A stretch of 34,283 nt of DNA from a virus, in IMG/VR virus record IMGVR_UViG_3300005441_000020, positions 1 to 34,283 of that record; one strand, 5' to 3'. Below the pieces are notes generated by a model, which was not told the origin of the DNA, did not search any database, and was given only the letters and a program-made list of their open reading frames with translations. Made by a program: the position numbers and the translations under genes. This document shows positions 1 through 29,771 of this stretch, in pieces; the first letter of the stretch is position 1, and every line of letters begins with the position of its first letter.

Positions 1-562
1 TCGCAGCGGCCCTCGCAGCGGCCCCCGCAGCGGCCCCCGCAGCGGCCCCCGCAGCGGCCCCCGCAGCGTCCCCCGCAGCGGCCCACGCAGCGTCCACCGC
101 AGCGTCCCACGCAGCGGCCAGCGGCTGATCAGCCGCTGCCACGCTGGCTTTATCCGTCAACGGCGTTAATGCGCGGAGCGCGTCCGCGTGCGGCTTCAGA
201 GCGGGCGTCAGATCCAGCCATGCCGGTGCCTGCACGCGCGCCAGCCAGTCGAAGGCGAGATAAGACCGCTGCAATTCCACGGCTGGCGTCGACTTCGACC
301 CGACTAGCAGCGGCAGCAACGGCTTCAGTAGCGCGGTGCGATGCGCGTCATCACGGATCGCATCGTTCCAACTCCGCATGAAGGCGCCGATCACAGGACA
401 GGCACACTGCGGCTGATCAGAGTGGGGCTCGCCCGCCAGCCACGCCACAGCCTCCATCGCGCACACGGCCGACTCGCGGGTCTCATGTCCACCGGCTTTG
501 AGCACGATGCCGTCCAGCCCGATCAACGGCAACGTCTTCGGTAGTCCAGTCGTCATAGCCAT
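1..562 (-). CDS. Partial conserved phage protein with C-terminal Ala-rich tandem repeat (runs off left edge)
   Basis: The reading frame is open from ATG 562 to the window edge, so the C-terminus is missing. The start has a good GGAGG eight bases upstream; a second ATG at 556 is possible. The first ~165 residues look globular, with motifs such as ESAVCAMEAVAWLAGEPH, CACPVIGAFMRSWND and SYLAFDWLARVQAPAWL. The end turns into four-residue repeats of the AAxA/AAxD type (AAWD, AAVD, AAWA, AAGD, AAGA). From memory this resembles a family of uncharacterised phage and actinobacterial proteins that share the ESxVCxxEAVAWxAGEPH motif and end in long (R)DAAWAAA-type repeats. Function is unknown. It is the last visible gene of the leftward early operon, one base after the stop of the preceding Cys-rich gene. 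Confidence 0.75.
   Translation of the reverse strand, partial: MAMTTGLPKTLPLIGLDGIVLKAGGHETRESAVCAMEAVAWLAGEPHSDQPQCACPVIGAFMRSWNDAIRDDAHRTALLKPLLPLLVGSKSTPAVELQRSYLAFDWLARVQAPAWLDLTPALKPHADALRALTPLTDKASVAAADQPLAAAWDAAVDAAWAAAGDAAGAAAGAAAGAAAGAAARAAA
2..121. repeat. Ten tandem 12-bp units (consensus CGCAGCGGCCCC)
   Basis: Ten consecutive 12-base units start at 2, 14, 26, 38, 50, 62, 74, 86, 98 and 110. They differ mostly at the G/T of position 8 and in the last four bases. Read on the minus strand each unit encodes four residues of the Ala-rich tail of the gene ending here. The leftmost units are nearly identical and the units further in are more diverged. The array touches the window edge, so the contig may have broken in it. 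Confidence 0.95.
119..138. repeat. Perfect 20-bp palindrome CAGCGGCTGATCAGCCGCTG
   Basis: All ten base pairs match around a central TGATCA. It sits inside the Ala-repeat gene, immediately before the tandem array in plus-strand order. It encodes ordinary residues in the gene's frame, so it may simply be a coincidence of Ala/Asp/Gln codons; as RNA it would form a strong hairpin. Confidence 0.8.
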
Positions 563-736: not shown

Positions 737-1146
737 GCCGCCACCTCGCCAGGATCGGGGATGTAGATGTCCATCTCGGCGCCGAGTCGCTGCGCTCGCT
801 CGATCAGGTCGTTGAACTGCTTCACGTTGAGGTCCGACGTATGCCCAGGCACGGTGTGGACTTCGCCTGTCGTCATGTCGGTCACTTCGCGCGGAATAAG
901 CCGGAGAGCCAGCACGTCTTTCATATCCTCGAACTCGTATCCGCAGTGCTCAGCGAACAACGGAATCACGACCCCGTGCCAAAATCGGTTCTGTGCGCTC
1001 GACCGCTTGCGCCGCGTAACTTCGATCCGAACAGTGACGTGGCCGTCAGGGAACCGGCGCATGGCCTCCTCGAACAAGCGCCGTCCCGTCATCTGGAGCT
1101 TGCCCTTCTCGATCACGCCGCCTGTTTCGTAGAACTCCTGCTTCAT
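733..1146 (-). CDS. NinB-like / recombination-associated phage protein
   Basis: 137 residues, overlapping the exonuclease gene upstream by four bases (ATGA). After a basic segment (VTRRKRSSAQNRFWHG, about residues 43-58) come an acidic helical segment (FAEHCGYEFEDMKDVLALRLIP) and a C-terminal block (HTSDLNVKQFNDLIERAQRLGAE, then DIYIPDP). The SxxQNRFxHG...LNxxQFxxLIERxQ pattern is typical of small phage proteins encoded next to recombination nucleases and often compared with lambda NinB, an ssDNA-binding recombination mediator. The NinB link rests on pattern and context, not on a computed alignment. A role in the annealing/exonuclease recombination pathway is inferred. Confidence 0.6.
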   Translation of the reverse strand: MKQEFYETGGVIEKGKLQMTGRRLFEEAMRRFPDGHVTVRIEVTRRKRSSAQNRFWHGVVIPLFAEHCGYEFEDMKDVLALRLIPREVTDMTTGEVHTVPGHTSDLNVKQFNDLIERAQRLGAEMDIYIPDPGEVAA

Positions 1147-1787
1147 GCCACAGCCTCAGTCGGCACGAGTTGGGCCACCGCCTCAACTTCCTTCTCCACT
1201 TCGGACAGGAAGGCACGGACCATGATTTCGTAGCTGGCGATCTGCGCCTCGTCCCGCGGCACGCGGATACAGAGCACCTGAAGCGCCGCCGGGAACCGAT
1301 CATCGAAGCTCACGAAGTCGCACCACTGCGCCCCAGTGATCCACAGGGAATGCACGATCTGATAGAGGTATTCCTTCGGGACTGTCCGCGAGCGCAGATA
1401 CGACAGGTGCGTCGAGGACTTCGGGCACTTCAACTCCAGCACGCCTTCGTAGCCGTTGACTTCCCCGTCAGGTGAACATCCAGCCGCGATGGTGTCGTGC
1501 GTCACAAACCCGACCGGATTCGCCAGTCGGCCCGTCAGCGCCTCGTACGCCGCGAACGCATCCGACTCCTTGTCGATGCCACGCTGCATCGCCGCGTTGA
1601 TGTAGGTGTCTTCCTGGGACTGCCCTGTCAGCCGCTCGCACACGAGCTGCATCCGCAAGTCTCGCCGTGCTGCCGCTTCGCCTGTCTTGATCGTCGCCAT
1701 CATGTCGGCGGCGCGCGAGGCCGTGAGCTTGCCGAGACGGAGGGCGTACCACTCCGGGGACCGTTGGGCGATGTCGTGAACCTTCAC
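1143..1787 (-). CDS. YqaJ-family (lambda exonuclease-like) recombinase nuclease
   Basis: 214 residues, the usual size for this PD-(D/E)XK family, which resects dsDNA ends 5'-to-3' to give ssDNA for an annealing partner. Signature blocks are in order: QRSPEWYALRLGKLTAS (8-24), an MQRGIDKESDAFAAYE helix (68-83) with the conserved Glu, SPDG (105-108, metal-binding Asp), LELK (117-120, the catalytic ExK) and YLYQIVHSLWITG (140-152) with the family's conserved Gln. The start overlaps the stop of the ERF annealing gene by four bases, so nuclease and annealing protein are translationally coupled, as in lambda Red/RecET-type pairs. All catalytic residues appear intact. Confidence 0.93.
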   Translation of the reverse strand: MKVHDIAQRSPEWYALRLGKLTASRAADMMATIKTGEAAARRDLRMQLVCERLTGQSQEDTYINAAMQRGIDKESDAFAAYEALTGRLANPVGFVTHDTIAAGCSPDGEVNGYEGVLELKCPKSSTHLSYLRSRTVPKEYLYQIVHSLWITGAQWCDFVSFDDRFPAALQVLCIRVPRDEAQIASYEIMVRAFLSEVEKEVEAVAQLVPTEAVA

Positions 1788-2557
1788 GACTGCACCGCCG
1801 CAGCGCGTGCCTTCAGCTTACCGATCGCGCCCTTGTTCGTCTTTGTCAGGTGGTTTCGGTATTCCGGCTTGGAGGCTTCCCACGCCTTGACCAGGGCATC
1901 GCGGCCGTTGTCGGCCACGGCTTCGAGCTCGACCAGCCAGTCGTCAAAACCGCGCGGTGCGACAGGTTCTGGCGCCGTCCGCGCCGCTCGGTTCCCGTCG
2001 TCATCGTCTTCCCCAACCGCGACGTTGAAGATCATCTTCAGTAGGTAGCGCATGCCGTAGGACATGGCCGACCCGACGGCGTGCGTCTTCGTCATCACGT
2101 CGCCGCCCTTGGCCCCTTTGCCGTCTGCCGGCATGTCGGCCTTGTAGACCTTGCCGTGGCCGCCCAGGTGCGTCACGTCGCACAGGACGCGCACATAATC
2201 GGCCTGTGGCGCGTCTCCGGTGTTAAACGACAGCGCGAATCCGTGCTTCGTGTAGATCGGCCGCAGTTCCCGATCGAGCGCTTCGTACGAGGCGTAGCGG
2301 CTGCGCGTCTGCGGGTTCTCGGCGTCGGCGGCAACCGGCCGCATCTCGCGCTGAGCCTCCGACATCGCGGCATTGAACGCCGTCTCAGCCTTCCGTGCTT
2401 CACCGCGTTCCCACAGCGCCATCAGCCGTTCGATCTTCTCGACGGAGGCGTTCGGGTCGCGCGCCAGCCGCTCGAACAGCGCAACGGAGTCAGTAGCCGG
2501 CGCCTCCAAGGTCTGCGGCTCGACTCGCTCAAGCAAGGTCGGTTCTCCGGTCTTCAT
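1784..2557 (-). CDS. ERF-family single-strand annealing protein
   Basis: 257 residues from ATG 2557, which overlaps the upstream stop (ATGA); a longer in-frame extension upstream is rejected because it would cover the preceding gene. ERF proteins anneal complementary ssDNA during phage recombination and genome circularisation. Visible features are an N-terminal helical region (FERLARDPNASVEKIERLMALWE, in 29-50), the ERF core (YASYEALDRELRPIYTKHGFALSF, 88-111), the signature SAMSYGMRYLLKMIFNV (163-179), an acidic run EDDDD (183-187) and a basic Lys/Ala C-terminus. It is coupled to the YqaJ nuclease downstream, forming a two-component recombination system. Confidence 0.9.
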   Translation of the reverse strand: MKTGEPTLLERVEPQTLEAPATDSVALFERLARDPNASVEKIERLMALWERGEARKAETAFNAAMSEAQREMRPVAADAENPQTRSRYASYEALDRELRPIYTKHGFALSFNTGDAPQADYVRVLCDVTHLGGHGKVYKADMPADGKGAKGGDVMTKTHAVGSAMSYGMRYLLKMIFNVAVGEDDDDGNRAARTAPEPVAPRGFDDWLVELEAVADNGRDALVKAWEASKPEYRNHLTKTNKGAIGKLKARAAAVQS

Positions 2558-2847
2558 GCGGCCCCTTTCGCGTCGTATTTCTGCGCCAATTCCCTGAGCA
2601 CGTTTCGCGCCTCGACCGCTTGCCGCTGCGCTTCTTCGCTCGTGAAGGTGTAGAGCGACCAGCCGTGTGAGTCGTACTGCGTGGCCCTGAGCCACGTCCC
2701 CGGCTTGTAGACTTCCATCACGCGCCCGTCTTCGGCGGTGATCGTCAACTCGCCTCTCGTGAACTCGTCCACCGTCGCCCGCGTGAACGAGGACGATCCG
2801 AACGGCAGACGCTCGACGACGACACAGGGCGGCAGGTTGCGAGCCAT
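2554..2847 (-). CDS. Hypothetical early phage protein (97 aa)
   Basis: The ATG directly follows the upstream stop (TAG then ATG) and the TGA overlaps the ERF start. The N-terminal two thirds looks like beta strands (TRGELTITAEDGRVMEVYKPGTW). The C-terminal third is a helix of mixed charge (EEAQRQAVEARNVLRELAQKY, 71-91). No family recognised. Its place next to the annealing protein suggests an accessory early function, but this is inference. Confidence 0.75.
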   Translation of the reverse strand: MARNLPPCVVVERLPFGSSSFTRATVDEFTRGELTITAEDGRVMEVYKPGTWLRATQYDSHGWSLYTFTSEEAQRQAVEARNVLRELAQKYDAKGAA

Positions 2848-7410: not shown

Positions 7411-8762
7411 GCGCGCTCCGCCACGATCAGCGCCCCGCCCTGACCGCGCAGATGCGCCATCGTCGGGTTGCCTTGATACTCGCGCGCTTCCCAGTGCGGG
7501 CCGATGAGCAAGAATTGCTTGATCGGGACTGGTGCCTTGATCGGCTCGCCCTTGCTGGTGTCCTGCCAGAGCTCGCTGCACACCGTGGCGATCCGCCCAT
7601 CGGGCAGTGCCCACCACCAGATGTTGCCACCTGGCACATGCCCACTCTCGCCGACATTGCGCGGGAGATGGTTCAGCAGCGTCGGGATCTTACTGATGCC
7701 CTCCGCTGTGAGCATGTTGCTCGGCCGCATCTCGTGATTGAACCGTGACTCTCCGCGCACGGATTCGCCGGAGAAATGGGTCACGAGTCCGCCCCACAAT
7801 TTGCCGACACCATAGCAGCCGAATAGGCGCCCCGGCTTATCGCTCGGCGAGAACGCCGCCGGGCCGGGATACGACCGCGGCTCACTGAAGGCGATCGGGA
7901 CGCCGTACGCCCCGATATGGCCCTCGTTGTATCCAAGCGAAAACGGCCGCTTAATCGTCTCGTCAACCCCTGGCGTCTCGTCGCGGGACGTATGCGTGTC
8001 GAGGTGATCGCAGAATTGTGGCAACAGCACCGTGTGCGGATCGTCGTCGTCCGCGTTCCGTGGATTGCGAATCTCCCCGAGCGACCGCCGCACGTCCGCC
8101 GGCGCTTCGCTGAGCGCGGCGCCGCACGCGAACATGGGCCGATCAGGACCGAGCGATTTCAGGAAGTCGAACAGTTCCTTGTACTCGCGGATCTGCTCGT
8201 CGCTGTCGCGCATGTGCGCTTGCTGGACGTACTCGTTGTCGCCATCGGCCAGAAGGAAACGCTTGAGTAGACCGCGCTCCACGGCTCGCGTCCAGAACTT
8301 GATCTCCCAGGCGATCCGTTGTTTCGAGTCCTTCCACTGATGGCCGGCTGTTGACTGAACGTACAGGTCGTGACGAGCAAGCATCTCAACGAAGTCCAGC
8401 ACGCGATCGATGTGCACCGGCGAGACGCCGCGCATGCCGAAATAGCTCCCAGACGGCGGCGGCACATCCGGCCCGTTCGGATCAACCCAGTCGTAGCCGA
8501 GCACTCGGAAGTTGCGGATGATCGTCACGCCCCAGGCGCGGAGCTGCCCCGCCACGTCTTCGCTTTCGGACGGACGTTCGTGGTAATCGGTCGCACCGCA
8601 GAACCAGTGCGTCCCTGTTGGGCTGCATGGCCCGTTGTCGTCAGCGAACGAGTACGTCAGATCCTGCGTCGCTGACGACCCGTGCTTGTGCGCTCGAAGC
8701 TTGCCGTGAATGGACCCTGACGCCGCTGGCGAACCGGCGCCGGCCATGAGCAGATAGCTCAC
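7407..8762 (-). CDS. TIM-barrel glycoside-hydrolase-like protein (451 aa)
   Basis: Start at GTG 8762, coupled (GTGA) to the second barrel-like gene. The N-terminus (about 20-45) is Ser/Thr/His-rich. From ~50 the pattern is that of a (beta/alpha)8 sugar hydrolase such as clan GH-A: AGQLRAWGVTIIRNFRV (strand after helix), VLDFVEMLARHDLYVQ, then LKRFLLADGDNEYV, where the Glu sits where the acid/base Glu of GH-A enzymes would be. Later strands include MFACGAAL and GYNEGHIGAYGVPIAF, whose Glu could be the nucleophile. The C-terminus (WWWALPDGRIATV...) looks like a beta domain. Hydrolysis of a surface glycan is inferred; no exact family identified. Confidence 0.5.
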   Translation of the reverse strand: MSYLLMAGAGSPAASGSIHGKLRAHKHGSSATQDLTYSFADDNGPCSPTGTHWFCGATDYHERPSESEDVAGQLRAWGVTIIRNFRVLGYDWVDPNGPDVPPPSGSYFGMRGVSPVHIDRVLDFVEMLARHDLYVQSTAGHQWKDSKQRIAWEIKFWTRAVERGLLKRFLLADGDNEYVQQAHMRDSDEQIREYKELFDFLKSLGPDRPMFACGAALSEAPADVRRSLGEIRNPRNADDDDPHTVLLPQFCDHLDTHTSRDETPGVDETIKRPFSLGYNEGHIGAYGVPIAFSEPRSYPGPAAFSPSDKPGRLFGCYGVGKLWGGLVTHFSGESVRGESRFNHEMRPSNMLTAEGISKIPTLLNHLPRNVGESGHVPGGNIWWWALPDGRIATVCSELWQDTSKGEPIKAPVPIKQFLLIGPHWEAREYQGNPTMAHLRGQGGALIVAERA

Positions 8763-23675: not shown

Positions 23676-24125
23676 CTAGTACGTTCCACCCTGTGTCTGA
23701 AATTGCACGATGTAATCTGCGGTATGCCGAGAGAGTCCGCCGTGAATCTCTGGCTCCGCGCCTTCCGTTTCGAGATCGAACGTCACCCAGGCCCGCACGG
23801 GCGTGGCTGGTGAACTGCTCGTGTCTGAGAACGACCCATCGAACCCGTCGAGCCGTTGACGAATCGCGGACCCGATGGCATCGGCCCGCACCCGTGAGCC
23901 TTGCTCGTTGCCAGGATTCGCGTAAATGTCGATCTGCACCCGCGCCCGTGCGAGGCCGGCGACACTCCGCAGCGAATTCGGTCGCACGATGTCCACGGCG
24001 AGAATCACCCCGGCCGGATACGTGACTTTCTCTGGCAACTGATCCGGGTACAGCCGCGTCAGGCCCGCCGCAATCACGGCGTTGTCGGCCATCACGTACT
24101 CGCGCACGAGATCGCGGATCGTCAT
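23676..24125 (-). CDS. Tail terminator / completion protein (149 aa)
   Basis: The ATG overlaps the head-closure stop (ATGA). The order of strands and helices (YPDQLPEKVTYPAGVILAVD; ARARVQIDIYANPGNEQGSRVRADAIGSAIRQRLDGF; VRAWVTFDLETEGAEPEIHGGLSRHTADYIVQF) is that of the DUF3168/gp-U-like tail completion family that caps the tail tube at the head end. Confidence 0.82.
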   Translation of the reverse strand: MTIRDLVREYVMADNAVIAAGLTRLYPDQLPEKVTYPAGVILAVDIVRPNSLRSVAGLARARVQIDIYANPGNEQGSRVRADAIGSAIRQRLDGFDGSFSDTSSSPATPVRAWVTFDLETEGAEPEIHGGLSRHTADYIVQFQTQGGTY

Positions 24126-24466
24126 GCCGCCACCGCCCGCGCCGCGACAGCAATCAGCAGCCCCTCGCCGCGATTGATCTCGGTGACACCTTTCACGTCG
24201 TAGGTACGACCGTCATGTCCGATGATCTGCGCCAAATCCGGCGTTGGCCTCGGACTCATGTCGTACGTCTTGTAGATGCCCTCAATCGTGGCGTCGATCT
24301 GACGGGCCTGCCACGTTTCGGTGGCGCTACTCTGTAACCATTCCGCCGCGATGGGCTGGCTACTCACCCACGTCGCCACGTCTTGGCCGGTCTGCGGATC
24401 CTCAGCGACCGTCGCGGTCTGCACGACAATACGTCGGTCCATCTTGCCGGACGCCAGGTGCGTCAT
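24122..24466 (-). CDS. Head closure / head-tail joining protein (114 aa)
   Basis: ATG 24466 overlaps the stop of the glycosyltransferase fusion (ATGA). The LASGKMDRRIVVQ start and the run TGQDVATWVSSQPIAAEWLQSS...DARTYDVKGV-like ending (here GHDGRTYDVKGVTEINRGEGLLIAVA) match the SPP1 gp16/HK97 gp9-type head-tail joining family. It should follow the connector directly; instead two non-structural genes intervene. Confidence 0.83.
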   Translation of the reverse strand: MTHLASGKMDRRIVVQTATVAEDPQTGQDVATWVSSQPIAAEWLQSSATETWQARQIDATIEGIYKTYDMSPRPTPDLAQIIGHDGRTYDVKGVTEINRGEGLLIAVAARAVAA

Positions 24467-26511
24467 GCTGACACCTGCGGATAGGACCACGTATCACCAG
24501 CGAAGAACCGATCCATCTGCGTGGTACTCGGATGCAAGCTGCTCACCTTCCCGATGTGCTTCACGAACATCGGGTGACTCATCACGCCGGGTTCACGTCC
24601 GAACCGCGCCAACACCCACGAGGCGAGCAATTTGTCAAACGCGATCTTGGCGTTGCCCCGGAACCCGCCCCAGGTCTCGAGATTCGCGCGGGACCAGACG
24701 AGAAAGTCTTGTGCGTCTTCCATGCGTAACAGCACCGCTTGCGAACCCGCACACCGATCGAGGCGGTCATCGTAAAACCCGACATGGCCATGCGGTGGAG
24801 ACACCCGGAACCCAAAGAGCCGATACAGGTGGCGATTGGGTCGGGCTGCAGCTCCGATCCACCGCTTCACACTCGCGACGAAGTCCGCGCAGAATGACAG
24901 GTCATCCTCGAGCAGCAACACCCAGTCGTAGACGTTGGGATCGAGGCTGGCAATCTGCGCCAAGCCGTTCTCGTTCGGCGTCCGTTGGCGAGAGGGCACA
25001 TGCAACGTCACCGACCCAATCGATGCACCGAGCTGACCGGACAGCCAGCGCGTATCAGGATCGGTCAGACAAATCTGGAGCTCGGATGGCGGGATCCCTT
25101 GCGCGAGTAGCCGGCGCACGGTCCCGCCCAGATAGTTCGGTTTCGGGGAGCGATCGGCCGTCCGCATCGTGATGGCCAGCCGCAGGCCAGGCGCCGGTAA
25201 GAACGCGCCCTCCCCGGCCGCACGAAATACCTGGACGTTCCGTCCATACCACGATTGCTTCGGCGCCGCCGCAAGGAATCGCGCCGAGAGCTGCTGGGTC
25301 AGGACTGAATCAAAACCAAGACCGCGGGCGATCAGCCGCTCCCGCCAATACTCGTGCGGTTGTTCGTTGAGATGCCCCTGTCCGCCTTGCCCAGGCGTGG
25401 CCGCGGTAAAGAGCAGCACGCCACCCGGCCGCACATGGCGTACGAGGGTGTCACACAGCACGTCGGCCGCGGCGGCCGGCAGATGTTCGGCCACTTCCCA
25501 ACACAGCACGAGGCCGAACTGCTCTTGCACATCCAGCGGAACCGTGAGATCCGCGTGGCGAATCGGGGTATCGATCTGTGTGACCGGAATCGAGACATCC
25601 ACACCCACACTGCGGATACCGCGCGCCTGCGCGCGTGTCACGAAGTGCCCTTCTCCGCACCCCACGTCTAGGAGGCCCACAGGCTGGCCCAGCGCCACGA
25701 GGGCGGCATCGAGGCACGCCGAAGACCCTGGCAAGGTCCAGCGTCGCGTCTCTTGCCACTGCGGCGTGTAGAGCGCGGGACGCCTGTGTGTGCGGATCGG
25801 CCGCGACGGCTTAGGCGGAGCCGGATGCCGCGGCGCAATAGCCCGCGTTTGCGACTGCCCGATATGAAACACGCAATTTTCAAGTACGCGGGCCACGAAG
25901 CCGTCGATCCGACCGCTGGCGACCATCTCGGAGTGATCCCCGCGATCCGTCCGCCCGCGGACGAGCTGATGAATGCGGAGCAGCGCGGACGTGCGCGTGA
26001 CGGCTGGCGGAGCCCCCCAGTGATACCGTCCCACGTCGACGGCTTCTGGGGCACCGGCCAACCGACGCCACGGCGCAGCGGATCGCGACGGCACGCCATG
26101 ATTCCGCAGACTGCAGGGGCATTTCTGGCCCCGTTCCTTGTATTGGCCATAGAGGCGCAGCGAATAGACATCTGGCCGCGTCCGCCGCACGTACTCGAAC
26201 GTCTCTACCGGGAAGGGGCGGACCCATTCCCAGTCGTTCTCGAGCAACATCGTCCAGTCCGCGTGGCGATCGACCGCCACCTGCACCATCGCTGTTCGCA
26301 ACGCTCTCGCGCCTCGCTGCGTCGGATGGTGCACGACCGTCGCGAAGCCATGCGCTGCTGCGAGCGCGAGGTTGTCAGGTTCCTGTGAGCCGTCATCACC
26401 GTGGAGCAATAGGAACTGCTCACGCGCGTGCGGGTGCTGCGCGGTAAAGCTCTCCAGCGTGCGCTTGGTGTAGTCTGCGCGCCCACAGGTGAGCAACAGG
26501 ACGGCGATCAT
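24463..26511 (-). CDS. Glycosyltransferase-methyltransferase-glycosyltransferase fusion (682 aa)
   Basis: ATG 26511 overlaps the previous stop (ATGA). Domain 1 (1-~225) is GT-A like: MIAVLLLTCGRADYTKRTLESF, LLLHGDDGSQEPDN, then MLLENDWEW where a metal-binding acidic motif sits. A Pro/Arg-rich linker follows. Domain 2 (~255-435) is a Rossmann SAM methyltransferase: LLDVGCGEGHF (280-290), VGVDVS, then LCWEVAEHL (336-344) and RPGGVLLFTA. Domain 3 (~443-680) is a second GT-A like part: AITMRTADRSPKPNYLGGTV and VLLLEDDLSFCADF (531-544), with an ending rich in aromatic and basic residues. It probably transfers sugars and a methyl group to a glycan or protein. Acceptor unknown. Inserted between connector and head closure genes, which makes a virion target plausible. 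Confidence 0.83.
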   Translation of the reverse strand: MIAVLLLTCGRADYTKRTLESFTAQHPHAREQFLLLHGDDGSQEPDNLALAAAHGFATVVHHPTQRGARALRTAMVQVAVDRHADWTMLLENDWEWVRPFPVETFEYVRRTRPDVYSLRLYGQYKERGQKCPCSLRNHGVPSRSAAPWRRLAGAPEAVDVGRYHWGAPPAVTRTSALLRIHQLVRGRTDRGDHSEMVASGRIDGFVARVLENCVFHIGQSQTRAIAPRHPAPPKPSRPIRTHRRPALYTPQWQETRRWTLPGSSACLDAALVALGQPVGLLDVGCGEGHFVTRAQARGIRSVGVDVSIPVTQIDTPIRHADLTVPLDVQEQFGLVLCWEVAEHLPAAAADVLCDTLVRHVRPGGVLLFTAATPGQGGQGHLNEQPHEYWRERLIARGLGFDSVLTQQLSARFLAAAPKQSWYGRNVQVFRAAGEGAFLPAPGLRLAITMRTADRSPKPNYLGGTVRRLLAQGIPPSELQICLTDPDTRWLSGQLGASIGSVTLHVPSRQRTPNENGLAQIASLDPNVYDWVLLLEDDLSFCADFVASVKRWIGAAARPNRHLYRLFGFRVSPPHGHVGFYDDRLDRCAGSQAVLLRMEDAQDFLVWSRANLETWGGFRGNAKIAFDKLLASWVLARFGREPGVMSHPMFVKHIGKVSSLHPSTTQMDRFFAGDTWSYPQVSA

Positions 26512-27116
26512 GCCGCACGCTCCACCAGCACGGTATCGATCGCCTCGCGACGAAAACAAGACAATGCCGTCGACCGCGAGCAGTTGACGATGTCGATCCC
26601 CGCCGCGGCGAGTGGGCCCGGTAACGTCTGGAAAGCTTTGATGCAGGCGGCATACGGCGGTTGCGTGCGATCAGGGTGCTCGCCGAAGCAATGCGACGGC
26701 CCTCGCGCGGGACGGCCCATGTCGTACCCAAGCAACACGATCCGCGCGGCCCCGAGATGCACGGCCAGATTGATCGCTTGATAGCCTGAGTTATGGCCGG
26801 CTTTCACGCCGGTCGGATCGAGCGTCAGCCCATCGCGCCCGAGATTGCGTATCACTTGGATGCCTTTGAACAGCGCCGACGATGTTTGCAGGGAGTACTT
26901 CAAGCCAGCAAAAGACTGCGCCCCTTTCTCCCACCGCCACCATTTCGCATCACAGGCGTAGAGCACATCGGCCCACTTCGCTAGTTTGTAGGCGTCGTTC
27001 ACGACGATCATCCGCGCCTTGTCGCGACAGAACTCAACATCCGCCTGTGTGAGACTCGGACCTGTCCCGACACAGACGATGGTTGAATTCGGCCAGAGTT
27101 TGGGGACGGTCGTCAC
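26508..27116 (-). CDS. DUF115/MptE-like Rossmann protein of glycan cassettes (202 aa)
   Basis: Start at GTG 27116, overlapping the connector stop (GTGA). Residues 12-22 carry TIVCVGTGPSL (GxGPSL nucleotide-binding loop), followed by MIVVNDAYKLAKWADVLYACD (37-56), then HNSGYQAINLAVHLGAARIVLLGYDM (108-133). These are the landmarks of DUF115/MptE-like domains, found in flagellin-glycosylation proteins (Maf) and in phage proteins. This single-domain version may bind or prepare a nucleotide-linked substrate for the transferase fusion downstream. Exact reaction unknown. Confidence 0.72.
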   Translation of the reverse strand: MTTVPKLWPNSTIVCVGTGPSLTQADVEFCRDKARMIVVNDAYKLAKWADVLYACDAKWWRWEKGAQSFAGLKYSLQTSSALFKGIQVIRNLGRDGLTLDPTGVKAGHNSGYQAINLAVHLGAARIVLLGYDMGRPARGPSHCFGEHPDRTQPPYAACIKAFQTLPGPLAAAGIDIVNCSRSTALSCFRREAIDTVLVERAA

Positions 27117-27496
27117 GCCCACGTCTCCGTGAGATACCCGCCAGCCTTCAGCACGCTCTTGACCGTGTCGGCGAGATCACCCATCGCCTCGACCCGTTCG
27201 TTCGGCGCATCGTCCCCGCGGAACCGATAGAACTCCGCGACTTGTTCCAACACGGCCAGCCGCACCACCGCGGGCGCCGCAGGACTCCCCGTCGTCCACG
27301 CTTCGATTGTCGCGATCCAGTCCGTATCCATCGGGTTGCGCTGGGCAATGCGCTGACACACGACTTCCGTCGCCGCGTCGAGCTTCAGTTGCAGATCGGG
27401 ATCGTCCACGGGCGATGCCGGCGATCCGCTCAGGACCGGCGACAGCCGGAGATGCGCCTGCGCCTGCTCGAGCGTCACGATGGTCGGGATCGTCAT
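27113..27496 (-). CDS. Head-tail connector (HK97 gp6-like, 127 aa)
   Basis: ATG 27496 overlaps the stop of the collagen-like gene (ATGA); the longer frame lies inside that gene. Features match the gp6-like/PF05135 family: VTLEQAQAHLRL at the start, DDPDLQLKLDAATEVVCQRIAQRN, then APAVVRLAVLEQVAEFYRFRGDD and an amphipathic end. These proteins form the first ring under the portal. Confidence 0.82.
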   Translation of the reverse strand: MTIPTIVTLEQAQAHLRLSPVLSGSPASPVDDPDLQLKLDAATEVVCQRIAQRNPMDTDWIATIEAWTTGSPAAPAVVRLAVLEQVAEFYRFRGDDAPNERVEAMGDLADTVKSVLKAGGYLTETWA

Positions 27497-28374
27497 GCGT
27501 CGGTTCCGTCCCGGCCGTCTTTCCCAGGCTTCCCGTCCCGGCCGCCCTTCACCGCGAGACGCCACGCTTTCGCAGACTCCGGCGTCCCGTCCCCTGGTCG
27601 CGTCGTGGTCGCTTCCTGGGCAATCCAAAACGCGCCCTTGACCGTGACGCCAGCGGCTTTGGAATACCGCTTTCCGAATTGCCAGATCCCCGCATCAAAC
27701 GGAATGGCGATCGGGAAGTCTTTGACCTGTGACCCGTTGGCGAATCGCAGCAGCCAGCCCTTCCCCTCCTCAAAGACGACATCGAGATCGTCGAACCCGA
27801 GGCCGTCGGCGCCATCTTTCCCGGCCACTCCAGGAGCGCCATCCTTGCCGTCGAGACCAGGAGCGCCGTCCTTCCCGTTGACGCCTGGCTGACCATCGCG
27901 CCCGTCGCGCCCAGGCGCCCCGTCTTTCCCGCTCAACCCGTCGGAGCCGTCTTTCCCATCGATCCCGTCGCGTCCATCCTTGCCAGCGAGGCCGGTCGGC
28001 CCAACCGCGCCGTCCTTCCCGCTGAGGCCAGGAGCGCCATCCTTGCCGTCGACACCATCCCGGCCATCCTTGCCGCTGACGCCATCGACTCCGTCTTTGC
28101 CGGCTGGTCCGACCGCGCCTACTGCCCCCAGGGGCTGTCCAGGCTCGCCCTGTGGCCCTTGCGGCCCGGCTGGACCTGGCACGAGCGCCCGCGCCTCCAC
28201 CGCCACCATCCGGCCCCGCAGATCGCTGAGCGTGTCCGCGATGGCGTCCCAGGCGTCTTTGCTGCCATACCCGAGCGGTCTCGACTCAAGCGCGGCGATC
28301 TTGGACAGCAACGGTTCTGTGGCCGCATGGACGGAGAGCGCGATAATGTCGGCGAGTTGTTCCGTCTCGGTCAC
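27493..28374 (-). CDS. Collagen-like phage protein (293 aa)
   Basis: ATG 28374 overlaps the portal stop (ATGA). Residues 1-60 are helical and could trimerise. Residues 67-191 are an almost perfect Gly-X-Y collagen region with ten GKDG motifs, most of them nine residues apart; one four-residue break (GQPL) lies near 79-82. Residues ~195-280 are a compact beta domain (VVFEEGKGWLLRFANGS; YSKAAGVTVKGAFWIAQEAT; AWRLAVKGGRDG), and the end is again GRDGKPGKDGRDG. Trimeric collagen-like fibres occur in several phages. Here the gene lies in the head module, so a head or neck fibre is likely. Candidate acceptor for the nearby transferases. Confidence 0.88.
   Translation of the reverse strand: MTETEQLADIIALSVHAATEPLLSKIAALESRPLGYGSKDAWDAIADTLSDLRGRMVAVEARALVPGPAGPQGPQGEPGQPLGAVGAVGPAGKDGVDGVSGKDGRDGVDGKDGAPGLSGKDGAVGPTGLAGKDGRDGIDGKDGSDGLSGKDGAPGRDGRDGQPGVNGKDGAPGLDGKDGAPGVAGKDGADGLGFDDLDVVFEEGKGWLLRFANGSQVKDFPIAIPFDAGIWQFGKRYSKAAGVTVKGAFWIAQEATTTRPGDGTPESAKAWRLAVKGGRDGKPGKDGRDGTDA
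27802..28176 (-). repeat. Collagen-coding repeat region, partly 27-bp periodic
   Basis: Encodes residues 67-191 of the collagen-like protein. GKDG codons recur every 27 bases over several stretches (residues 92, 101, 110, 119; 131, 140, 149; 167, 176, 185), indicating expansion by duplication of a nine-residue unit. Confidence 0.8.
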
Positions 28375-29771
28375 GCCGCCCTCAATTCCGCGACCTTGCG
28401 CTTGACCATGAGCGGGAGCGCGGCGGCATCCCAGCGTTTGTCCTCTGGCATCGGCGACCCATCAGGCATGGACGGTGCGGCCGGCGACGGTGACGACGTC
28501 TCAGTCGGCGGGGCCGCGTCACGCTTCGACAACGCCTCGAGGCTGTAGTACTGCTGTTGTGCAAGGGGGGATTCACCGCCGGCGACCGGACCCGCATCCC
28601 AGAAGCGCAGACGCGCCTCGTTGTAGCTCAAGCCAGCATTGACCGCCTGCTGCGCCGCGGTGGCTTTCGCGGTCATGTCCATCAGCAACAGATCGTCAAG
28701 ATCGAGCTCCACCGCTAAGGTCTTCCCAGGCACGTTGTCCAGCCCGAGTCCTTGCGTGTGCTTGACCTGGAATTTCGTAATGTGCTTCTGCAGGCAGTCG
28801 GTGTAGTAGTCCTTGTTCTTCGCTTCGATGTTCGTATAGGTCGGATCTGGGCCGATCCCGACCTTGTGCCGCGGCATATGGAAACACTTCGCGATGTCCT
28901 CATCGGTCATGTGCAACTGCTCGATGACCCGTGACTGCTCGGCCGTCATCATGCCCATAGGTAGATAACTCATCCCGCCCGTTAAAACCGCGATGTCCCC
29001 TTGCTTGCTCCCTGAGAACGCTGCCTTCCACTCCGCTTTCATCGCGTCCGCGTCGGCCTGTTCCATCGTCCCAGGCACGAGCAAGATGCCGCCTGGCCGT
29101 GAGCCATTCGTGACGAACTTGTCGGTGGCGCTGCGGATGTTCAGGCCTTGCATCGCCGGAAACCCAGCCGCGTAAATCGGCGACACCCCACAGAGCGGAT
29201 GGAACAGCGGACACATCACGTCGTGGATGATTTCGCGCGCCGGCACGATGGCTTCCGGCGCTTGCGAGAGGCTGTCCGCACGTAGTTGGTAGAACACCGA
29301 TCCATCCGGCGCGACCAACGGCGTCACGCGATACGGATCGAGGATGTAGAGCGCCCGAACCACCCCACGCTGATCCCGTTCCTTGAGCACGTAGACGTTG
29401 CCCGTGATCAGTTTCGAGAGGATGTACCACTCGGCATAGTCCACCCAGGTCTGATAGCTGTTCGGCTGATGCAGGACTGGCGAGAAGGCGTTGCTGTCGA
29501 CTTCCGTCCAGATCCCGTCGGTGTCCTGCTCCACGAGCATCGGTCGCAGCTTTGCGATGTCCCCAGCGATCAACGTCACGCACGCGAACAGCGTCGGATT
29601 CGAGAGCGCGACATCGACGTTGACCTCTTCGTTGCGCTGCCAGCCGCCCGTGGTGAGTTCGTGAATGAATGAGGACAGCCAACTGCGCGAGCCTTCGACC
29701 CCTGCGAGCGCACCCGCGCGCTTCGTGTTCAGGCTCAGCGTCTTCGAGCCGATCGTGATGGCAAGATTCAT
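28371..29771 (-). CDS. Portal protein (HK97 family, 466 aa)
   Basis: Dodecameric ring protein at the packaging vertex. The layout is that of HK97-type portals: LSNPTLFACVTLIAGDIAKLRPMLVEQDTDG (about 55-86), then YILSKLITGNVYVLKERDQRG, YILDPYRVTPLVAPDGSVFYQLRAD, EIIHDVMCPLFHPLCGVSPIYAAG, then SGSKQGDIAVLTGGMSYLPMGMMTAEQS and CFHMPRHKVGIG. The C-terminus is Pro/Ser-rich. Unusually the gene follows the capsid gene. Coupled on both sides (ATGA). Confidence 0.93.
   Translation of the reverse strand: MNLAITIGSKTLSLNTKRAGALAGVEGSRSWLSSFIHELTTGGWQRNEEVNVDVALSNPTLFACVTLIAGDIAKLRPMLVEQDTDGIWTEVDSNAFSPVLHQPNSYQTWVDYAEWYILSKLITGNVYVLKERDQRGVVRALYILDPYRVTPLVAPDGSVFYQLRADSLSQAPEAIVPAREIIHDVMCPLFHPLCGVSPIYAAGFPAMQGLNIRSATDKFVTNGSRPGGILLVPGTMEQADADAMKAEWKAAFSGSKQGDIAVLTGGMSYLPMGMMTAEQSRVIEQLHMTDEDIAKCFHMPRHKVGIGPDPTYTNIEAKNKDYYTDCLQKHITKFQVKHTQGLGLDNVPGKTLAVELDLDDLLLMDMTAKATAAQQAVNAGLSYNEARLRFWDAGPVAGGESPLAQQQYYSLEALSKRDAAPPTETSSPSPAAPSMPDGSPMPEDKRWDAAALPLMVKRKVAELRAA

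Follow-up and report, generated by a model that had tools for sequence, protein, structure and literature searches.

A predicted virion glycosylation island with a Maf-type enzyme beside a collagen-like fibre gene in the late operon of a phage

Introduction

Virion glycosylation has so far been documented in a few mycobacteriophages, in which glycans of the capsid and tail tube were described (Freeman 2023, as cited by PMC11256854 and PMC12619734). In phage Corndog, the genes of an O-methyltransferase, two glycosyltransferases (GTs) and an N-acetylglucosamine (GlcNAc) transferase lie between the portal and protease genes; their products are made in infected cells, were not identified in virions and have been proposed to modify the capsid (PMC4351075). 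Outside phages, Maf enzymes O-glycosylate flagellin before its export (PMC11339370). Here we describe a gene island in IMG/VR virus record IMGVR_UViG_3300005441_000020, a stretch of 34,283 bases (the window). In this island the gene of a single-domain DUF115-like (Maf-type) protein and that of a fused GT-methyltransferase-GT (GT-MT-GT) lie beside a collagen-like fibre gene, among the head-neck genes of the late operon, and the enzymes probably serve to glycosylate the virion.

No description of a Maf-type or collagen-linked phage glycan island was found in the literature searched (titles and abstract openings, with few subscription journals covered), which is a weak argument for novelty. Phage GTs and collagen-like proteins are mentioned in PMC7029224 and PMC10202952, neither of which ties them to virion glycosylation in the parts available; the variable island of the latter paper encodes two collagen-like proteins together with a tail fibre.

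Results

The genes of the island are consecutive on the minus strand of the window. The portal gene (28371..29771; Pfam PF04860, Phage_portal, 7.7e-70) is followed by the genes of the collagen-like fibre (27493..28374; PF01391, Collagen, 2.9e-19), the head-tail connector Ad1 (27113..27496; phrog_40, 3.4e-8), the predicted single-domain Maf/DUF115-type glycosyltransferase (26508..27122), the three-domain GT-MT-GT fusion (24463..26511) and the head closure protein Hc1 (24122..24466; PF05521, Phage_HCP, 4.7e-10). Overlaps of 4 bases (GTGA or ATGA) join portal to collagen, collagen to Ad1 (ATGA), DUF115 to GT-MT-GT and GT-MT-GT to head closure, and the 10-base overlap of Ad1 with DUF115 is the only junction of another length. 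The connector and the fusion probably start at ATG 27496 and ATG 26511, downstream of the starts of the longest open reading frames (ORFs). The original prediction had placed the collagen-like, connector, DUF115-like and GT-MT-GT genes, in this order and translationally coupled, between portal and head closure, and all of them were confirmed at their positions.

The DUF115-like protein matched the phrog_4603 profile (1.4e-43) over profile positions 1-175 of 178, while its match to Pfam MptE-like (PF01973, 1.7e-5) covered 31 residues only and stayed below the cut-off (25.1 bits vs 34.6). An AlphaFold2 model built from 11 aligned sequences had a predicted local distance difference test score (pLDDT) of 89.3 and a predicted template modelling score (pTM) of 0.88. 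Its best structural match was the Maf flagellin glycosyltransferase of Magnetospirillum (5mu5; Z 15.6, root-mean-square deviation 3.4, 188 of 204 residues), with HPPK (Z 11.3) and the sialyltransferase CstII (Z 9.6-11.0) lower; CstII headed the plain Foldseek list (E 7.5e-4), in which Maf was not among the 50 matches listed. The protein consists of 204 residues in one domain, and it aligned with 255-516 only of the 632 residues of 5mu5. Because of the single domain and the score below the Pfam cut-off it is not classed as a Maf protein, and from the model it is predicted to work like Maf.

In the GT-MT-GT fusion (domain limits approximate), the methyltransferase, which is S-adenosylmethionine (SAM)-dependent (25177..25767), is the sole domain with a firm family match (Methyltransf_23, 2.7e-11), and its best folds were the sugar methyltransferases TylM1 and CalS10 (Z 15.4-15.7). 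The N-terminal GT-A-like domain (25771..26511) matched Glycos_transf_2 below the cut-off (0.0034), carries an END motif invariant in 4 sequences and has a stand-alone homologue in Tetraselmis virus S20. For the C-terminal domain (24463..25176) no family match was found; an EDD motif invariant in 5 sequences and the hyaluronan synthase fold (Z 14.0, where the model has low confidence) make it a probable GT-A-like glycosyltransferase. With the profiles of the two flanking GT domains no convincing solved relative was found, and an NCBIfam scan gave nothing above cut-off. The label GT-MT-GT of the original prediction is therefore firm in its methyltransferase and weak in its flanking GTs, and structure prediction and profile searches of the transferase domains added the Maf fold of the DUF115-like protein. 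The domains also occurred as separate genes in relatives (methyltransferase and C-terminal GT in L007, C-terminal GT in L023, methyltransferase in L005), and the separate occurrence of all three suggests that they belong to one pathway. The model of the whole fusion was poor (pLDDT 62, pTM 0.39). The collagen galactosyltransferase COLGALT1 and LH3, at Foldseek ranks 2 and 3 for this model, had template modelling scores of about 0.2 and were not used; they were also not among the 50 structural matches listed in a second comparison (VIA).

The collagen-like fibre has an N-terminal segment without repeats, a Gly-X-Y stalk (residues 67-193) and a C-terminal tip that may be CBM5/12-like. The stalk contains 37 unbroken Gly-X-Y triplets, whereas 2000 shuffles of its residues gave 7 at most; no other ORF of the window has a run of at least 6. 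When the tip was compared with CBM_5_12 (Pfam PF02839), 7 of 10 aligned sequences matched at E <=0.1 (best 5e-5), and the window's own domain gave no match. With 4 Ser and 1 Thr among 127 residues, Ser and Thr are so scarce in its sequence that the stalk is a doubtful O-glycan acceptor. BclA, which like the fibre is collagen-like, is a glycosylated exosporium collagen that differs from this stalk in its Thr-rich GPT triplets. Stalk glycosylation of the BclA kind was rejected since Ser and Thr are too rare both here and in relatives (2.2 % of 2715 Maf-positive stalk residues and 3.3 % of 5364 in the Maf-found set). Separately, the fibre gene was found deposited as 'portal protein' in IME307 and RHph_X2_26 (L048 4614-5618 and L047 5858-7279), and phrog_1289 (portal) matches the window's fibre tip; the label on fibre genes is probably a mistaken label transfer.

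Relatives of the DUF115-like gene (Maf-like genes) were collected by a profile search, which confirmed at least 559 among 599 stretches; the best 80 of the 559 were kept, a set thereby biased to near relatives, and 58 remained after removal of near-copies at 90 %. A collagen-type ORF lay between the portal and Maf-like genes in 44 of the 47 loci with a visible portal, and the fibre's C-terminal domain lay there in 45 of 47; the minus-strand control for collagen-type runs was positive in 3 of 58 loci. The three loci without a collagen run were L063, L102 (also without the fibre tip) and L116 (tip only). The fibre stop and the Maf-like match were no more than 60 nt apart in 24 of 50 loci, and in 49 of 50 the distance did not exceed 500 nt. 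Where portal and Maf-like gene were more than 3 kb apart (6 loci), four loci kept the fibre adjoining the Maf-like gene and two had no fibre. In L030, L031 and L036, probably one phage, the fibre adjoined the portal, and the Maf-like gene followed at a distance of about 5.4 kb.

The genes downstream of the Maf-like gene varied. With at least 4 kb of downstream sequence (n=42), another GT was found in 40 loci, a methyltransferase in 28 and both in 26, as counted with GT and methyltransferase profiles built from the same loci's own clusters. The variable genes included Glyco_trans_1_2 and Glycos_transf_2 proteins, FkbM and Methyltransf_24 methyltransferases and a B12-binding radical SAM enzyme. 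Eight of 10 representatives of the downstream clusters matched a Pfam family, one of the 8 below cut-off; the two without a Pfam match bear our own names, GT8like and GTc21. The B12-binding radical SAM enzyme was seen within a glycan island at L072 3449-5011, and its cluster has four members in four loci.

A search of genome contigs with the Maf-like profile gave 12 loci. In the Mesorhizobium prophages L206 and L207, several transferase genes form an island between capsid and portal, and 9.6 kb (L206) or 8.4 kb (L207) separate the fibre tip from the Maf-like gene. L205, L210 and L212 have an island and no fibre-tip match in about 20 kb. A capsid-profile match lies about 2 kb upstream of the Maf-like gene in L205, L206 and L207, and none was found in L210 and L212.

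Two fibre profile searches (best 80 of 503 and best 80 of 580 confirmed), with profile A3 derived from Maf-positive loci and A6 from loci classed Maf-negative, gave 147 loci, of which 101 were not near-copies and 85 had at least 3 kb downstream. A single-sequence fibre search returned two loci, both already in the set. A Maf-like gene lay within 4 kb downstream of the fibre in 32 of the 85 (Maf-positive) and was absent there in 53 (Maf-negative). Maf-positive fibres had a median of 20.5 Gly-X-Y triplets vs 8 in Maf-negative ones (p 1.1e-4); runs of at least 10 triplets were found in 19/32 vs 12/53 (p 0.001) and runs of at least 6 in 25/32 vs 27/53 (p 0.021). Fifteen phylogenetically independent pairs were selected by a greedy script on one FastTree portal tree (n=73) without support filtering, and the Maf-positive stalk exceeded its partner in length in 12 pairs, fell short in 2 and tied in 1 (sign p 0.013, Wilcoxon p 0.030). 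With a Maf-like gene anywhere on the locus counted, the result was 12 pairs to 3 (sign p 0.035); in the first fibre sample by itself it was 9 of 11 (sign p 0.065, Wilcoxon p 0.036). These comparisons point to a moderate link between stalk length and the presence of the Maf-like gene, whereas stalk Ser+Thr was 2.2 % in Maf-positive and 2.1 % in Maf-negative loci. Other transferases followed the fibre in 27/32 Maf-positive vs 1/53 Maf-negative loci, a contrast that favours the former, as most of the loci behind the transferase profiles were Maf-positive. A transferase or Maf-like match lay somewhere on the locus in 6 of the 53 Maf-negative loci. GT-like ORFs between capsid and portal were also seen by eye in L130, L142, L149 and L161, which have no Maf-like gene downstream of the fibre.

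A Ser/Thr-rich acceptor was sought in seven protein parts by comparing Maf-positive with Maf-negative loci (p uncorrected), and none was convincing. Capsid Ser+Thr was 16.1 vs 15.2 % (p 0.0096; pairs 8 up, 5 down), and the last 30 capsid residues gave p 0.57 (5 up, 6 down). The portal gave p 0.30 (8 up, 7 down) and its C-terminal end p 0.03 (12 up, 3 down), the fibre tip p 0.45 (11 up, 4 down), the fibre tail p 0.22 (5 up, 4 down) and the fibre without its stalk p 0.10 (5 up, 10 down). For small proteins next to the capsid, inspection was by eye only. For a hydroxylysine route, 2OG-FeII_Oxy_3 matched in 0 of 16 records with the control positive in 2 of 14, a scan that covers one oxygenase family in records that may be fragments.

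Ten named phages with a Maf-like gene were examined in stretches of 9-17 kb (D3, PAJU2, S20, phiNP, P1, Eowyn, IME307, Psp6, CcrColossus and Domovoi), and none contained a Gly-X-Y run of at least 6. The fibre tip was present in 2 of the 8 scanned for it (PAJU2 and IME307; CcrColossus and Domovoi were outside that scan). D3, Psp6, P1 and S20 have transferases without the fibre in 12-17 kb; in SOVA965 and RHph_X2_26 the fibre is present and about 14 kb gave no match to a transferase profile, and in EBPR siphovirus 3 the stalk of the fibre is not of the collagen kind and one GT-like match lies upstream of the portal. Transferases without collagen-like genes and the reverse, the cases that the original prediction had named as speaking against it, thus both occur within the stretches examined. 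Since transferase-only and fibre-only phages both exist, an obligatory pairing of collagen and transferases is dropped, which by itself does not refute virion glycosylation. D3, PAJU2, S20, IME307 and Psp6 carry their Maf-like relatives within the head-neck genes. A single small gene separates the relative from the preceding capsid gene in D3 and Psp6, and in S20 it comes after an unlabelled gene in the capsid position and one small gene. In P1, PmgO and PmgP match the Maf-like profile (L043 5941-7127) and PmgQ (7798-8499) matches a GT profile, and these Maf-like genes lie among putative morphogenetic genes.

The window overlaps a 42,468-base record of the same phage, which adds about 8 kb (99.9-100 % identity over the 3,816 and 19,818 bases compared). 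Outside the island, an ERF single-strand annealing protein and a YqaJ exonuclease form a recombination pair at window 1143-2695. A low-complexity stretch with a repeated Gly/Arg/Cys reading lies at the window's left end (L282 8010-8294, overlapping window 1-110). In the same phage outside the window, L282 1112-2227 (minus strand) encodes a protein that combines a matrixin (Peptidase_M10) domain with a bacterial Ig-like match, and a neighbour protein has a CBM5/12 match.

Discussion

In conclusion, the island in the neck part of the late operon is best read as a virion glycosylation island primed by the Maf-type enzyme, to which we give a probability of about 0.6. This reading is the best supported because the enzyme has a Maf-type fold, further transferases lie in the late operon, the position is conserved and Corndog offers a precedent. 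It also agrees with the places of the Maf-like relatives within head-neck genes, beside tail genes (CcrColossus, Domovoi) and among the putative morphogenetic genes of P1. A Maf-type domain made together with head-neck proteins would most simply glycosylate a virion protein. Most likely the Maf-type enzyme would add the first sugar to a particle protein in the cytoplasm, before or during assembly, and the fused GT-MT-GT would then extend and methylate the glycan. In relatives the Maf-type gene is retained and the other enzymes are exchanged, by which each phage may make a different glycan. Since no sugar-nucleotide synthesis gene was found among the ORFs scanned with Pfam (part of the ORFs), the sugar donor probably comes from the host. 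The original prediction, that the phage decorates its fibre or another virion part with a methylated glycan, is thus upheld for the virion, with the methylated product, like the sugar, the enzyme activities and the virion-protein acceptor, being what we infer from these genes; the acceptor may be the fibre or the capsid, which are not separable here.

Several observations weigh against this reading, among them the lack of a sugar-nucleotide gene among the ORFs scanned and of a convincing Ser/Thr-rich acceptor. No report of a glycan on a virion protein of this phage group was found in the texts consulted, and the authors of PMC7029224 read phage GTs near tail fibres as modifying the host O-chain. 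The relatives PAJU2 ORF010 and that of Eowyn are deposited as 'structural protein', a label which, if true, would put the protein itself in the virion. In CcrColossus (behind a tail protein), Domovoi (one gene separates it from a tail and a lectin-like protein upstream) and phiNP, the Maf-like gene has tail, lysis or terminase genes in its vicinity, and in Eowyn it lies among hypothetical genes; because its position varies in this way, the acceptor need not be the same everywhere. The rarity of phrog_4603 in bacterial genomes (5/385 in one class) speaks in favour of the reading. Of those five loci, however, one is a weak match (3.5e-7) and one is the search's own centre, and a phage gene was present in only one 3.6-kb stretch, prophage origin not being shown for the others.

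That the fibre specifically is the acceptor, whether at its tip, in its N-terminal part or at the stalk's few Ser/Thr, and displays the glycan at the neck, is a tentative proposal. It would account for the closeness of fibre and Maf-like genes, for the four of six loci that keep the two adjoining when the portal is distant, and for the longer stalks of Maf-positive loci. However, these stalks are no richer in Ser+Thr, three of 47 loci lack the collagen run, D3, Psp6, S20 and P1 carry the enzymes without the fibre, the two genes are kilobases apart in L206, L207, L030, L031 and L036, and 53 of 85 fibres have no Maf-like gene close downstream; the proximity claimed in the original prediction is real, and the fibre is one candidate acceptor. 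Possible to a similar, still modest degree is that the major capsid protein or a capsid neighbour is the acceptor, and that the fibre with its putative carbohydrate-binding tip is longer in order to reach through a capsid glycan coat. A longer stalk without extra Ser/Thr suits reach rather than attachment, the Corndog-type precedent points to the capsid, and the Maf-like gene lies near the capsid gene in D3, Psp6, L205, L206 and L207 and near the capsid position in S20. But the reach idea is itself conjectural, the capsid excess of Ser+Thr appears in only 8 of 13 pairs with a p value uncorrected for seven tests, and L210 and L212 have no capsid-profile match.

Modification of the host surface (O-antigen or capsule), for example to exclude other phages, appears unlikely. 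The pelagimyophage GT8 genes were read in this way by their authors (PMC7029224), and a weak phrog match (0.0022) is filed under moron/host takeover; but the genes are coupled between connector genes and so would be made late with the head-neck proteins, the Maf-type fold is known to act on protein, and no membrane flippase or transmembrane GT family was among the matches of the two island proteins. Glycosylation of the phage DNA is very improbable. Phage GTs can act on DNA (PMC12619734), and the longer contig of the same phage contains a weak match to a C-5 cytosine methylase (E 0.0013, below cut-off), while the Maf-type fold and the late position of the genes argue otherwise; no TET/JBP match was found in 16 records, in which the control was silent too, so that absence is not shown.

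Returning to virion glycosylation, we offer with considerable reserve a broader proposal, namely that many siphophages carry an exchangeable, Maf-primed glycan cassette tied to a collagen-stalked, carbohydrate-binding neck fibre, which would give each phage its own surface glycan (serotype), the fibre being either the acceptor or co-evolving in length with the coat. If this were true, virion glycosylation would be widespread beyond mycobacteriophages, as at least 559 confirmed relatives among 599 stretches indicate, and a flagellar protein-glycosyltransferase fold would be used by phages with cargo varying like that of a surface-antigen locus. It would also suggest a role, testable in laboratory phages, for P1 pmgO-pmgQ and for D3 orf7, orf12 and orf13.

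Among known systems, the Maf flagellin glycosyltransferases (pfam01973), which attach a nonulosonic acid to flagellin Ser/Thr residues, are alike in the fold of the catalytic domain; the phage-borne protein differs in being a single domain without Maf's N- and C-terminal domains and in falling below the Pfam cut-off. Campylobacter CstII, of the GT42 class, shares the fold and a GxGPSL motif in the alignment, but its sequence profile match to the DUF115-like protein is not significant (E 0.25), and the database label of phrog_4603, alpha-2,3-sialyltransferase, is unsupported as an activity. Corndog (Cluster O) and the Che8/Corndog type likewise have methyltransferase and GT genes in the head operon near the portal, as does the window, in which the GT parts rest on weak matches. 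Compared by description, Corndog differs in that the available part of PMC4351075 names neither a Maf-type gene nor a collagen fibre, and no mycobacteriophage was among the matches listed of phage records with a Maf-like gene (60 of 76 records in one search). P1 resembles the island in its pmgO-pmgP-ppp-pmgQ genes, with two Maf-like proteins and a GT-profile protein, and differs in having no fibre of the window's type in the 12.5 kb examined. No published function of pmgO-pmgQ was found in the partial texts consulted, and all three of pmgO, pmgP and pmgQ are dispensable (PMC10695390), which fits a decorating role. The neck passage structure of the 936 lactococcal phages differs in that its tips are of other CBM types and the word collagen is absent from the available part of PMC6669499, but its neck fibres, with a trimeric helical stalk and carbohydrate-binding tips, resemble what is predicted for the fibre described here.

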